This document shows positions 5,215-41,894 of a stretch of 41,894 nucleotides of DNA, in pieces; positions within the stretch are counted from its first letter, which is position 1; every line of letters starts with the position of its first letter. Both the position numbers and the translations under genes were made by a program. The notes beneath the pieces were generated by a model. The model was not told the origin of the DNA and made no database searches. It saw only the letters and a program-made list of their open reading frames with translations. This DNA comes from Phycisphaerae bacterium (GTDB lineage Bacteria; Planctomycetota; Phycisphaerae; SM23-33). The stretch spans positions 1 through 41,894 of the forward strand of contig JAIORC010000255.1 of assembly GCA_021108335.1 (NCBI GenBank). The letters are read 5' to 3'.

Positions 5215-5302
5215 TATTCCGTCCCGTAAAAAAATGATGGGTGCCGTGGCGGGAGCGAAGCGACAGCCACGACGTAACTATTGCGAGGAAACCCACCCAT
5301 CA
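5212..5302 (+). repeat. Dispersed palindromic repeat, module A copy 1
   Basis: The core (5244-5272) has GCCGTGGC opposite GCCACGA-type arms. It is enclosed by a 9-bp inverted repeat, TGATGGGTG (5235-5243) and CACCCATCA (5294-5302). Bases 5212-5286 are nearly identical (one mismatch, one indel) to the reverse complement of 29031-29106. Confidence 0.9.
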
Positions 5303-5953: not shown

Positions 5954-6310
5954 GTAGGCCTGCCCCTTGGGGGCCGGGTCTTGACCCGGCGGTTGCATGG
6001 CACATGCAACAAGTTTGCAATCTGTGCAATTTCCCACGATATCGGGTAGCATGGTTAGCCCGCGTTTTTTGCGGGATAGCCATGCCTGCCCCCAGGGGGA
6101 AAGATTGATTCACAATTTCTGCGCTACCCCTTTTTCAAAACCATCCAACATACCATCTGCCGTCGTGTATCTATCTTTCATGGCCATCGGCTTTCGCCGC
6201 TGACCATGCCACCCGACATTTTTTTCTGGGCCAATCATGGCGACCCCTATGGTGTCGCCATGCCACCCGTCTTTTTTTCGCCGGGTCAAGACCCGGCCTA
6301 CAGAAACGGG
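5954..6310. repeat. Intergenic palindrome cluster downstream of trpG
   Basis: This gap holds no gene. From left to right it contains: GGCCGGGTC/GACCCGGC palindrome with GTTGCATG/CATGCAAC (5970-6010); a hairpin CATGGTTAGCCCGCG...CGGGATAGCCATG (6050-6084); a CCCCCAGGGGG tip (6089-6099); the module C body in minus orientation (6100-6180); a hairpin cassette (6178-6213); module B in minus orientation (6205-6270); and a second GCCGGGTCAAGACCCGGC (6280-6298). Each part recurs elsewhere in the window. Confidence 0.85.
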
Positions 6311-15746: not shown

Positions 15747-16008
15747 GGGTGCCGTGGCGGAAAGCGAAGCGACAGCCACGATGTTGGGTGGCATGGCGAC
15801 ACCGCAGGGGTCGCCATGATTGGCCCAGAAAAAAATATCGGGTGGTCCCCTAGGGAAAAGATAGATACACGACGGCAAATGGTATGTTGGGTGGTTTTGA
15901 GCAAGGGATGGCGTAGAAATTGTGAATCGCTCTTTCCCCCTGGGGGCCACCCGACATCATGGGAATTTGTAATTTTAACAACCATCGGGTGCCCCCCAGG
16001 GGGTTCAT
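15747..16008. repeat. Intergenic palindrome mosaic between dnaE and the next gene
   Basis: This gap contains, in order: module A copy 2 (15747-15783), module B copy 2 (15785-15845), a module C element (15839-15953, arms CGGGTGG.. and ..CCACCCG, with different but matching tips), and a GGGTGCCCCCCAGGGGG tip (15988-16004). No gene is supported in the gap. Confidence 0.85.
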
Positions 16009-24079: not shown

Positions 24080-24127
24080 AATCTCCGTTGCTTGACATAC
24101 TCCATATTGCCATTACAATGACTGCCG

Positions 24128-24327
24128 TCAGTGGAGAGAGCCGAAAGGCCGCCGAAGGGGCAAATCCCGTGAAACGGGATGAAACTCTCAGGCAAAAGGA
24201 CACTGGCAAATTATCCTCTGGAGAGCTTTCAAATATCCGGACGGGCAGTCAAATGCCCGATCGGGCGGTTTGAAACACCGAAGGGGCAAGGCCGACAGGT
24301 CTATCTCTCAGGTTCCAGGACAGAGGT
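24128..24327 (+). promoter_or_regulatory. Tandem glycine riboswitch
   Basis: Two glycine aptamers lie head to tail. The first (about 24130-24207) has GGAGAG, CCGAAGGGGCAA and GAAACTCTCAGGCAAAAGGA. The second (about 24218-24327) has GGAGAGCTTTC, CACCGAAGGGGCAA and ATCTCTCAGG..GACAGAGG. These are the conserved blocks of the gcvT riboswitch. Glycine-bound tandem aptamers usually switch expression of glycine-cleavage genes on. The next gene is a GcvT fusion, as expected. Confidence 0.95.
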
Positions 24328-24365
24328 GCGATGATTATATAGATGATCTCGGACTGTCCCTGGAA
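24313..24365 (+). promoter_or_regulatory. Riboswitch expression platform (alternative stem)
   Basis: The 3' end of aptamer 2, TTCCAGGACAG (24313-24323), can pair with CTGTCCCTGGAA (24354-24365) with one bulged C. This would compete with aptamer closure and lies just before the AAAGG ribosome-binding site (24371-24374), so a translational or mixed switch is likely. Inferred from complementarity. Confidence 0.55.
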
Positions 24366-24381
24366 AATGAAAGGTTCCGCC

Positions 24382-27033
24382 ATGGCTGCGACAGAGGATT
24401 CTCTCCTGCGAACCCCATTATACGACCGCCACATCGCGCTCGGCGCGAAGGTTGTCGAGTTCGGCGGCTGGGCTATGCCCGTCCAATATCCAACCGGCAT
24501 CGTGGCTGAGCATCTGGCGACGCGTAAGACAACTGGTTTGTTCGATATCTCACATATGGGACGATTCGCCGTCCGCGGGGCTGGGGCGGTGGAATTCCTC
24601 CAGCACGTGCTGACCAATAACTGCCAGGCCCTCGACGTCGGCCTGGCCCAGTATACGATTATCCCCAACGAAACCGGCGGAGCCATCGACGACGCGTATC
24701 TCTACCGATTCGTAGCCGATGAATTCCTGCTGGTCGTCAATGCCGCCAACCGCCTGAAAGACTGGGCACACCTCCAGGAGCAACTGGCGAAATTCGACGA
24801 CGTGGAAATGACCGACCGCACCAACGAAATCGTGATGCTGTCGCTGCAAGGCCCGACCAGCCGGGCGATTCTCGAAGAAGTCATCGAGGCTGGGCCAATG
24901 CCAGAACCCGCGCGGAACAGCCTCTGCGAAGTTACCATCAACGCCGCAACCGTCAAGGTCGGGCGAACCGGCTACACCGGCGAGCCGCTGTGCTTCGAGC
25001 TGTTTATCCCCCGCGACGCCGGCGAAGGGCTGTGGGATTTATTGATCGCAAAAGGCGCGACGCCCGTGGGGCTTGGCGGGCGGGACACTTTGCGCCTCGA
25101 AGCCGCCATGCCGCTTTACGGCCACGAGTTCGGCTTGGATGGCGAGGGGAACGAAATCCCAATCTGCGCCGTGCCGCTGGCGAAATTCGCCGTGAGCTTC
25201 TCGCCCCTCAAGGGCGACTTCATCGGCAAAGCCGCCCTCGGATGGCAATACGAAGCACTCAAAAAAATCATGCGCCGCGATACGTCGCTCATCGCCGACC
25301 TGCCCCGCAAAATCGCGCCTGTCGCGCTGGCTGGGCGCGGCGTAGCCCGGGCCGGGGCGAAAGTTACACACGACGGCAAGCACGTCGGCTATATCACCAG
25401 TGGCACGATGGTTCCGCTGTGGGGTTCGCAGGGTGTGGGCCTGTCAAGCCGGCAGACTGATGAGCACCAACTCCGGTCGATTTGCCTGGCTTACATCGAC
25501 AGCGACATTTACGAGAATCAGCCGCTCACCGTGGACATCCGCGACAAAACTGTCCCAGCCGTTACCGTTAAGTATCACATGCGTTCCGAAGCGCCGCCTT
25601 TCGCCAGGCCGATTATCCACGACTTCCAACTACCGGCTGCCCCCCTGCCGACCGGGCCAGCCAAGGTCAAACACCTGCTGGACAAAGCCCTGGCCAATAC
25701 CGTCTGGCGGCAGCGCGAATGCATCAATCTTATACCCTCGGAAATGACGATCTCGCCGATGGCCCGGCTGCTTAGCGTCATGGACCCAGCCGGCCGATAC
25801 GCCGAACACAAAAAGTCCAAAGCCTTCTACGACGCGGACATTTTCTACTACCAGGGCACGGGATTCATCGACGAGGTCGAGCGGACACTGGAAGCCGAGA
25901 TGCTGGATTACCTCGGCTGTGCGGAGGCCGAAACCCGCCTCATCAGCGGGCAGATGGCCAACGCCACCGTCTTCAGCGCCATGGTGGACTACATCAATCG
26001 CACCGACCGCAAAATCGAGCAGCGGCGGATGCGGCAGGTGATGAACAATCACATCGGCAAGGGCGGACACCTCTCCAGCCAGCCGATGGGCGCACTGCGG
26101 GACTTCGTCAGCCGAGACCCACGAACCGAGCGGCCTGCCGTGGTGAATTTCCCCGTGCTGCCGGAAAACCAATACAAAATCGACGTCCCGGCTGCGTTGA
26201 AGCTTATCGACGAGTACCGCCCGGAGCTTATCATCCTCGGCAAGAGCATGGTGCTGCACACCGAACCCGTCGCGGAAATCCGCCAATTCCTGACGGCTGC
26301 CAATATCGACTCGGTGGTGATGTACGACATGGCCCACGTGCTGGGGCTGATCGGCCCGCACTTCCAGATGCCATTCGAAGAAGGAGCCGACCTCGTTACC
26401 GGCTCGACGCACAAGACGTTCTTCGGAACGCAGCGCGGGGTCATCGGCGGGCGATTTACCGAGGATCAGGAGCGTTACGAGCTTTGGGAGGCTGTCCGCC
26501 GCAGGACGTTCCCCGGCGCGGTGAGCAATCATCATCTCGGCACGATGGTCGGGCTATTGATGAGCGTCTACGAGATGAACCACTTCAAGGAAGAATATCA
26601 GCCGAAGGTCATCGCCAACGCCAAGGCCTTCGCCAAAGCGCTGGCGGATACCGGGCTGAACGTCGCCGGCGACTCGGAAATTTCGTATACCCAGACGCAC
26701 CAGGTGATTATCCACGTCGGCTACGCCCACGGGCCGGAAATCGCCGAGCGGCTCGAAGCTAACAACATCATCTGCAATTACCAGGCTTGCCCGGACGAGG
26801 AAAGTTTCACTGCCTCGGGCGCGCTGCGGATGGGCGTTTCGGAAATGACCCGCTTCGGCATGGGCCAGGACGATTTCAAAACGCTGGCTGGGCTGATCCA
26901 CGACGTGATAGCCGATAACGCCGACGTTACCGATAAAGTCAAATCGCTGCGGTCGAACTTCACGGAATTGCAGTTCTGCTTCAGCGAAAATGAATATGAA
27001 GGTGTCTTGCAAAAGCTGCACAAATTATTGTAG
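24382..27033 (+). CDS. Fusion of aminomethyltransferase (GcvT) and serine hydroxymethyltransferase (GlyA)
   Basis: An 883-residue two-enzyme protein. Residues 1-400 are GcvT (T-protein): RTPLYDRHIALGAKVVEFGGW, the folate-binding GGAIDDAYLYRF, VVNAANRLKDW and the C-terminal barrel. GcvT releases ammonia and 5,10-methylene-THF from the aminomethyl H-protein. After a Pro-rich linker (about 405-425), residues 426-883 are a divergent SHMT. They show INLIPSEMTISP, GRYAEH, FIDEVERTLEAEML, the PLP-binding Asp/His in YDMAHVLGLIG, the Schiff-base Lys in TGSTHKTFFGTQRG (about 678) and the carboxylate Arg in ALRMGVSEMTRFG. All key residues are present. SHMT uses methylene-THF and glycine to make serine. 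The start is ATG 24382 (AAAGG seven bases upstream); two in-frame ATGs at 24343 and 24367 fall in the riboswitch platform. Confidence 0.93.
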   Translation: MAATEDSLLRTPLYDRHIALGAKVVEFGGWAMPVQYPTGIVAEHLATRKTTGLFDISHMGRFAVRGAGAVEFLQHVLTNNCQALDVGLAQYTIIPNETGGAIDDAYLYRFVADEFLLVVNAANRLKDWAHLQEQLAKFDDVEMTDRTNEIVMLSLQGPTSRAILEEVIEAGPMPEPARNSLCEVTINAATVKVGRTGYTGEPLCFELFIPRDAGEGLWDLLIAKGATPVGLGGRDTLRLEAAMPLYGHEFGLDGEGNEIPICAVPLAKFAVSFSPLKGDFIGKAALGWQYEALKKIMRRDTSLIADLPRKIAPVALAGRGVARAGAKVTHDGKHVGYITSGTMVPLWGSQGVGLSSRQTDEHQLRSICLAYIDSDIYENQPLTVDIRDKTVPAVTVKYHMRSEAPPFARPIIHDFQLPAAPLPTGPAKVKHLLDKALANTVWRQRECINLIPSEMTISPMARLLSVMDPAGRYAEHKKSKAFYDADIFYYQGTGFIDEVERTLEAEMLDYLGCAEAETRLISGQMANATVFSAMVDYINRTDRKIEQRRMRQVMNNHIGKGGHLSSQPMGALRDFVSRDPRTERPAVVNFPVLPENQYKIDVPAALKLIDEYRPELIILGKSMVLHTEPVAEIRQFLTAANIDSVVMYDMAHVLGLIGPHFQMPFEEGADLVTGSTHKTFFGTQRGVIGGRFTEDQERYELWEAVRRRTFPGAVSNHHLGTMVGLLMSVYEMNHFKEEYQPKVIANAKAFAKALADTGLNVAGDSEISYTQTHQVIIHVGYAHGPEIAERLEANNIICNYQACPDEESFTASGALRMGVSEMTRFGMGQDDFKTLAGLIHDVIADNADVTDKVKSLRSNFTELQFCFSENEYEGVLQKLHKLL

Positions 27034-27525: not shown

Positions 27526-27900
27526 GGTGCCATGCTTCTGCTTGCAGAAGCATGTGGTAAGAAAACGCGTCGGGTGGTCCCCTAGGGAAAAGATAGATAC
27601 ACGATGGCAGGTGGTATGTTGGGTGGTTTTGAGAAAGGGATGGCGCAGAAATTGTGAATCGATCTTTTCCCTAGGGGACCACCCGATATCGTGGGAATTT
27701 GTACAGGTTACAAACCCCCTTGGGGCAAGCCTGTGCTACCCCACTATTTTATTTTGATTGGTGGGTGCCGTGGCGGGAAGCGAAGCTTTCAGCCACGATG
27801 TCGGTAATCCGTGCGATTTACATGCTTCTGCAAGCAGAAGCATGGCACCCGGCAAATATTGATTAAGAAACTGTAGGGTGGGTGCTCCCGCCCACGCGCT
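27526..27900. repeat. Intergenic palindrome mosaic between gcvH and tdh
   Basis: This 456-bp gap has no gene. It contains GGGTGCCATGCTTCTGCTTG hairpin (27526-27557), the 115-bp module C element (27571-27685), a GTACAGGTTACAAACCCCCT/TGGGGCAAGCCTGTGC block (27701-27741), module A copy 3 (27761-27801), CATGCTTCTGCAAGCAGAAG hairpin ending GGCACCC (27821-27850), and module T (27873-27899) 38 bp before tdh. Confidence 0.85.
27571..27685. mobile_element. 115-bp MITE-like element with perfect 24-bp terminal inverted repeats
   Basis: The arms 27571-27594 and 27662-27685 are perfect reverse complements (CGGGTGGTCCCCTAGGGAAA then AGAT on the left). The 67-bp interior is not palindromic but is conserved in four other copies (6098-6183, 15842-15952, 30751-30850, 41726-41825). 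No target-site duplication is evident and no transposase is nearby. Confidence 0.7.
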
Positions 27901-28972: not shown

Positions 28973-29003
28973 GCTGCAGGCTATTACTACGTCTCTGTGA
29001 AAT

Positions 29004-29175
29004 TTGATGGGTGCCCCCCAGGGGGCTTTATCGCAATAGTTACGTCGTGGCTGTCGCTTCGCTTCCCGCCACGGCACCCATCATTTTTTTCCGGGACGGA
29101 ATACTATACAACTCGTTGTATACCGAAAATTATGTTTGGGTGGCATGGTCCCCTGGGGACCATGTGTTTTCTGTC
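29004..29175. repeat. Intergenic palindromes between tdh and kbl, module A copy 4
   Basis: GGGTGCCCCCCAGGGGGC (29009-29026) is followed by module A in minus orientation (29031-29106), an 18-bp palindrome TATACAACTCGTTGTATA (29105-29122), and GGGTGGCATGGTCCCCTGGG-GACCATG (29139-29165). Part of a module C arm follows (29188-29215). No gene is supported here. Confidence 0.85.
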
Positions 29176-29262
29176 TCCCACGATATCGGGTGGTCCCCTG
29201 GGGAAAAGAGAGATACAGAAATGACCAATGTTGGGTGGAATAACACGAATTAGGAAATCACT

Positions 29263-30526: not shown

Positions 30527-31112
30527 GTAGGGTGGGTGCTTGCACCCACGTGAAAGCCCCTATGCGGCCGAAAAACACATGGTCCCCAGGGGACCATACC
30601 ACCCAACAACGGAAACAACAAAGGGACTTGGAAAAACTGTCGGGTGGCGTAGAAATTGCAATTGTTGGGTGGCATGGCGACACCGAAGGGGTCGCCATGA
30701 TTGGCCCAGAAGAGAATATCGGGTGGCATGGTCAGCGGCGAAGCCGATGGCCATGAAAGATAGACATACGACGGCGAATGGTATGTTGGGTGGTTTTGAA
30801 AAAGGGATGGCGTAGAAATTGTGAATCGATCTTTTCCCCAGGGGACCACCCAGTATCGTGGGAATTTGCACAGGCTTGCCCCAAGGGGGTTGCAAACCCC
30901 CTTGGGGCAAGCCTGTGCCACCCGACAACAGGGATTTTCCCGTTGCCGCGAAAAATAAAGCGCCTCCGGCCTTGTCAGTCGGGGGGGCAATCGCTACAGT
31001 ATTGCGCTTTGGATATTGGAATTTCCGCAGGCGGCACGGGTTTGTAACCTGTGCCGTGGTGGCTTGGAGCAGGCTGAAAAACACATGGTCCCTAAGGGAC
31101 CATGCCACCCAA
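30527..31112. repeat. Large intergenic palindrome mosaic between kbl and leuB
   Basis: The 725-bp gap 30478-31202 holds no supported gene. It contains module T (30527-30550), ACATGGTCCCCAGGGGACCAT (30580-30600), module B copy 4 (30665-30726), a GGTCAGCGGCG..CCGATGGCC hairpin and module C copy 4 (30726-30850), a 50-bp near-perfect palindrome around 30892 (arms ACAGGCTTGCCCCAAGGGGG / its complement, ending GCCACCC at 30922), and ACATGGTCCCTAAGGGACCATG with GCCACCC (31083-31112). An AT-rich tract (31150-31195) precedes leuB. Confidence 0.85.
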
Positions 31113-41619: not shown

Positions 41620-41894
41620 ATCCCCCAGGGGGCCACCCAACACGTTTTTTTATCGCCCTGGGGGCACCCAGCAATTTCCCACGATATCGGGTGGCATGGT
41701 TAGCCCGCGTTTTTTGCGGGATAGCCATGAAAGATCGATTTACAATTTCTACGCCATCCTTTCTCAAAACCACCCAACATACCATCCGCCATCGTGTATC
41801 TCTCTTTCCCCTAGGGGGCCACCCGGCGCGTTTTTTTATCGCACGTCCCAGCGCGGTGGCCTTCCCAGGCCACCGCGGCACAGGTTGCAAACCT
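41620..41894. repeat. Intergenic palindrome mosaic at the right edge
   Basis: No gene is supported here. The stretch has CCCCCAGGGGGCCACCC (41621-41637), a CCTGGGGGCACCC tip (41658-41670), GGGTGGCATGGTTAGCCCGC hairpin with CGGGATAGCCATG (41690-41730), module C in minus orientation (41726-41825) ending CCCCTAGGGGGCCACCC, and module G copy 4 with ACAGGTTGCAAACCT (41847-41894). Confidence 0.85.

Follow-up and report, generated by a model that had tools for sequence, protein, structure and literature searches.

The window, which is the whole stretch of 41,894 nucleotides that was analysed, contains at positions 27571–27685 (plus strand) a 115-bp element in which a core is flanked by two P14 palindromes, a homotypic P14/P14 dimer. 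The left arm, CGGGTGGTCCCCTAGGGAAAAGAT, occupies 27571–27594, and its exact reverse complement ends at 27685; these 24-bp mirror arms, reported in the preliminary description, are directly visible in the sequence. By simple arithmetic, about 3e-8 such exact 24-bp inverted pairs less than 200 bp apart are expected by chance in 42 kb, and a repeat search extended the inverted arms to 36 nt at 92% identity. Reading inward from the left, the sequence gives a tag, GGGTGG (27572–27577, plus strand), which includes GTGG, and then the short P14-type palindrome TCCCCTAGGGA (27578–27588, plus strand). The 73-bp core, running from GATAGATACAC to GTGAATCGATC (27592–27664, plus strand), has imperfect inverted ends of its own. 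It is followed by TCCCTAGGGGA (27668–27678, minus strand), the mirror of the left arm, by the right tag CCACCC (27679–27684), which reads GGGTGG on the minus strand, and by the right outer linker GATATCGTGGGAATTTG (27685–27701, plus strand), which is near-constant (in 29 of 32 full copies that could be scored). P14 arms alone make weak, short hairpins; the single-stranded fold of the whole 115-bp unit is far stronger than that of shuffled sequences (z = −8.7 and −9.3, one value per strand). A P8 REP hairpin, CATGCTTCTGCTTGCAGAAGCATG, with a GGGTGC tag adjoins this copy at 27531–27554 (plus strand).

Other features of the window were recorded beside the element. An Rfam search of the window returned a glycine riboswitch as its only match (24121–24213), upstream of an 896-aa open reading frame (ORF; 24343–27033) that fuses GcvT (aminomethyltransferase) to a serine hydroxymethyltransferase domain. 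Long tandem arrays of 45-bp and 69-bp repeats lie inside an ORF at 1–1220.

Copies of the core and their exchanged arms

The core interior recurs in the window in five copies and one fragment, and further copies occur genome-wide, which bears out the recurrence noted earlier. A second P14/P14 copy, whose arms are not mirror-perfect, lies at 15839–15953 (plus strand; core 15860–15932), and a copy with P10 on the left and P14 on the right at 30728–30851 (plus strand; core 30759–30831). On the minus strand, 41695–41825 pairs a left P14 with a right P9 (core 41733–41804), and 6050–6208 combines a left P10 with a compound right arm composed of P14, P9 in the middle and the tag (core 6103–6175). The fragment, near 29183–29217, belongs to a truncated copy (29177–29217, plus strand) that retains its left arm, GGGTGG-P14, and the first part of the core. 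The replacement hairpins mentioned in the preliminary description are thus real, the CATGGTTAGCCCGCG type at 6050 and 41695 and the CATGGTCAGCGGCG type near 6180–6207 and at 30728. That description undercounted the copies, because only one contig was visible to it: from the genome (3.78 Mb in 409 contigs, a fragmented assembly that is 91% complete) we collected 38 full and 12 truncated copies, about 50 intact or broken ones overall.

This repeat family is dispersed and without coding capacity. A peptide that the core might encode (MAGGMLGGFEKGMAQKL in the window copy) was considered and rejected, as most copies have ACG in place of ATG and the frame is broken by TAG codons and indels. The core had no match in 39 relatives or in 297 other genomes of the class (overlapping sets), and its pattern gave three single matches, in unrelated phyla, across a broader contig collection, where about 4 are expected by chance. 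Flanking target duplications were likewise absent among the copies: the mean direct repeat was 0.72, against 0.74 when flanks were re-paired (p = 0.55).

The layout of the copies is GGGTG(G/C)-hairpin-AAA to the left of the 73-bp core and TTT-hairpin-(C/G)CACCC to its right, and nearly every intact slot holds a hairpin. The left slot accepts P10 (CATGGTCAGCGGCG...), P14 (CCCC.GGGG) or P6 (CGTGGCGGGA...), and the right slot P9 (CATGGCTACCCCGC...) or P14. All six combinations are present among the 38 full cores: P10/P9 in 19, P6/P14 in 6, P14/P14 and P14/P9 in 4 each, P10/P14 in 2 (with 2 more in compound form) and P6/P9 in 1, so that half of the copies differ from the commonest pairing. The perfect terminal inverted repeat does not characterise the family; it is confined to copies whose left and right slots hold one and the same P14 palindrome, and that is what the 24-bp repeat of the 27571 copy is. 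Mirror-identical arms occur in the 27571 copy and in two more of the four P14/P14 copies, L034 and L036, which have a different palindrome centre; arm-to-arm copying could perhaps have tidied the arms at 27571. A perfect terminal inverted repeat in a single copy can thus mislead, when it consists of two slots filled by the same hairpin.

The arms follow the core subfamilies (nearest-neighbour concordance, p = 0.003 for the left and 0.001 for the right slot). Cores that are 1–2 bases apart nevertheless carry different arms, for instance P10/P9 in L015 versus P14/P9 in L035, and P6/P14 in L038 versus P6/P9 in L103, which argues that the arms have been exchanged repeatedly. Compound arms of the form GGGTGG-[REP]-CCTG-CCCCCAGGGGG-AAAGAT, found in L091 and L107 as well as at 6050–6208 in the window, place P10 or P9 between the tag and P14 and leave the inner P14 untagged; these three arms look like exchange intermediates. 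A GGGTGG inside the core is a further switch point, at which L091, L011 and L094 change to P7/P5 hairpins, and the left outer linker, with three main types, switches at the tag, in contrast to the near-constant right linker. Taken together, the arm variants suggest a cutting site next to the GTGG/GTGC tag.

Hairpin families and RAYT genes

The arms belong to a larger set of about 14 palindrome families. They were surveyed in 439 kb (the window together with 397 kb taken from contigs of the genome), from which the families themselves were also defined. This sample contained 321 family hairpins. Although the simple long-ORF model used for the intergenic counts makes about 83% of the sample coding, 246 of the hairpins fell between long ORFs. 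The families are therefore present in high copy number and mainly extragenic, as REPs are. Directly 5′ of the hairpins we found the tags GGGTGG, NGGTGG, GGGTGC or GTAG: GGGTGG precedes P5 (19/19), P10 (9/9), P11 (11/12) and P9 (12/15), NGGTGG precedes P1 (40/42), GGGTGC precedes P8 (16/22), and P3 and P4 mostly follow GTAG. A palindromic hairpin of 20–65 nt after GT[AG]G, the published form of a REP, was found for P1, P3, P4, P5, P9, P10 and P11; P6 and P8, unlike that form, follow GTGC. One window example is the P5 hairpin CATGGCGACACCGCAGGGGTCGCCATG, with a GGGTGG tag, at approximately 15790–15818 (plus strand). REPs also form doublets, and 20 of the 23 same-family neighbours within 200 bp were inverted with their tags outward. 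The full core copies are doublets in the same inverted orientation, with tags outside. In the 439-kb sample, P10 occurred only beside the 73-bp core and P9 mostly there, while P6, P14 and P5 were mainly elsewhere; some arms thus look native to the core and others common to other elements.

Hairpins of the tagged form GGGTGS-CATGG...CCATG occurred in 15 of the 40 genomes searched, the present one included, with hundreds of copies in some, and the reversed control pattern had zero occurrences in these 40 genomes. Within the class, about 95 such hairpins were counted in G007, 307 in G015 and 208 in G027, often as inverted pairs and with genus-specific stem sequences. A second modular element was also seen in the window (5232–5300 and 28990–29095), consisting of ATGATGGGTGCC, a P6 hairpin, ACGTAACTATTGCGA, an optional CCCCCTGGGGGG and CACCCATC; it shares with the core element the design of an outer stem with slots.

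Y1_Tnp transposase genes were found at six places in the genome. Three of these RAYTs are bounded by inverted REP pairs, namely by P8 (contig C207), by P3 with P12/P13 (C170) and by P1 (C213), so that a RAYT gene flanked by its REPs is present for P1, P3 and P8. At none of the six Y1_Tnp places in this 91% complete assembly was a RAYT flanked by P9, P10, P14 or P6, the hairpins that serve as arms of the core. Such a gene would strengthen the assignment to REPs without strictly defining it, since REPs may also be acted on in trans. The C170 locus (L101:1–640) is a complete REP-RAYT unit, with GTAG-tagged P3 hairpins outside and P13 and P12 inside. The C213 RAYT (L151:3001–5904, minus strand) lies in frame within leucyl-tRNA synthetase (leuS), an arrangement that we observed in five genera of the class (the present genome, G000, and G022, G024, G281 and G247; further stretches L154, L140, L175 and L177). 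These RAYTs sit immediately ahead of the editing domain, in a single variable loop where the exact position shifts slightly from one to another, keep the Y1_Tnp domain with its HuH and Tyr motifs, and are 44–58% identical among the four compared. A limited literature search returned no relevant report of RAYTs inside leucyl-tRNA synthetase.

One of these insertions has an empty counterpart. In G022, from a related genus, leuS contains a RAYT unit of 639 bp that extends from GGTGGCACAGG to GCTGTGCCACC, and the leuS of G132, in the same genus as G022, is empty; comparison of the two revealed no visible duplication at the site. The unit, inserted in frame, is laid out as GGTGG-hairpin...RAYT...hairpin-CCACC, that is, with the end design of the 115-bp element and a gene replacing the core. 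This filled/empty pair supports, without proving it, the view that the 115-bp element moves likewise.

Origin of the element and explanations for arm exchange

Considering these results, we propose, with a probability of about 0.74 for the REP-dimer interpretation overall, that the element is a REP dimer of the BIME/REPIN kind, dispersed by RAYTs and with its arms exchanged at the tags. Such a dimer would be built head-to-head from a GGGTG(G/C) tag, a REP hairpin, the 73-bp conserved spacer, an inverted hairpin and an inverted tag, and, having no gene, would be spread in trans by RAYTs. These enzymes act on single-stranded DNA and read a 5′ tag together with its hairpin, without producing a target duplication; their mobilisation of the 115-bp element itself we infer. 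For the arms, a new REP would insert immediately next to a GTGG/GTGC tag already in place, with later loss of the older hairpin. Against this view count the lack of a RAYT bounded by P9, P10, P14 or P6 among the six Y1_Tnp places, the weakness of single P14 hairpins and the GTGC tags of P6 and P8. More doubtfully, Y1 enzymes or RAYTs could be hairpin-exchange enzymes, for which the outer tag would serve as a fixed docking site where different REP families are inserted and removed. If so, the persisting unit would be the spacer core, and the ends would be drawn from a pool common to several elements and transposases.

Another mechanism for the exchange step, to which we give somewhat less than an even chance and which overlaps with the REP-dimer reading, is homology. 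Hairpins would break (e.g., by SbcCD-type cleavage) or replication would switch templates, repair would use copies sharing the core, linkers or GGGTGGCATGG words, and the repeats would be remains of REPs with no current transposase. The exchange points do coincide with short common words, GGGTG(G) and AAAGAT/ATCTTT, the mirror-identical P14/P14 arms fit arm-to-arm copying, and the lack of a cognate RAYT for the arms among the six Y1_Tnp places points the same way. However, hairpins are also common to elements whose neighbouring linkers are unrelated, and the compound arms resemble additions beside the tag rather than conversion.

The other two explanations concern the nature of the element. 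The preliminary description had called it a non-autonomous mobile element, and its dispersal, lack of coding capacity and swapped arms agree with mobility, but its ends are not conserved from copy to copy and no target duplication accompanies them. A classical MITE, i.e., a non-autonomous derivative of a DDE transposon with terminal inverted repeats, would account for a dispersed, ORF-free repeat with inverted ends in about 50 intact or broken copies, but we consider it the least probable explanation of all: the terminal repeats vary from copy to copy, target site duplications are missing, and tags and hairpins are REP-like. Hairpin arms with 5′ tags point towards the RAYT/REP world, which is IS200/IS605-like and leaves no target duplication, and away from DDE elements with terminal inverted repeats. 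Also improbable is a regulatory element maintained by selection, either a structured RNA or something resembling a terminator, in which the stem sequence would be free and the form kept. Strong folds in the copies tested and the occupation of nearly every intact slot by a hairpin are what selection on form would leave; yet the element matches no Rfam family, its copies are limited to one of the genomes searched and are often truncated, and both strands fold about equally, which is typical of DNA palindromes.

Comparison with known systems

REPs, their tags, dimers and hybrid dimers have been described (PMC3733652), as have REPINs (PMC3116915), GT[AG]G tags in the vicinity of RAYT genes (PMC6006769) and the y-z1 and y-z2 BIME mosaics of Escherichia coli (PMC8266576). 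Experimental demonstration of REP/RAYT spread is still poor, and near-identical cores with different and compound arms allow exchange to be read directly from sequence. The element resembles REPINs and head-to-head (HH) REP dimers (PMC3116915; PMC3733652) in its inverted, tagged hairpins with tags outside and a spacer between, its long single-stranded hairpin, high copy number and intergenic place, and the presence of RAYTs in the genome. The doublets of Pseudomonas fluorescens SBW25, however, have same-type arms, are rarely mixed (PMC3116915) and have the spacer as their less conserved part, whereas in the present element it is the spacer that is conserved, and its arms are swapped in at least 3 × 2 combinations. 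With the E. coli BIMEs it shares heterodimers and a mosaic of REP types and linkers, but those carry GTAG tags, and here there are many more palindrome families with mainly GTGG/GTGC tags. Hybrid dimers of Stenotrophomonas maltophilia likewise join different REP families, but make up about 10% of dimers there (PMC3733652), compared with 26 of 46 outward pairs of mixed family in our 439-kb sample. The ends of IS200/IS605 elements (IS608, ISDra2) are alike in their single-stranded hairpins, 5′ guide tetranucleotide and lack of target duplication, the mode of action being presumably similar; unlike them, the present element has no internal transposase gene, and its tags lie outside both ends in inverted order. 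Hybrid REP dimers and BIME mosaics are thus already published, and the novelty here lies in a core that is conserved while its arms are freely exchanged.
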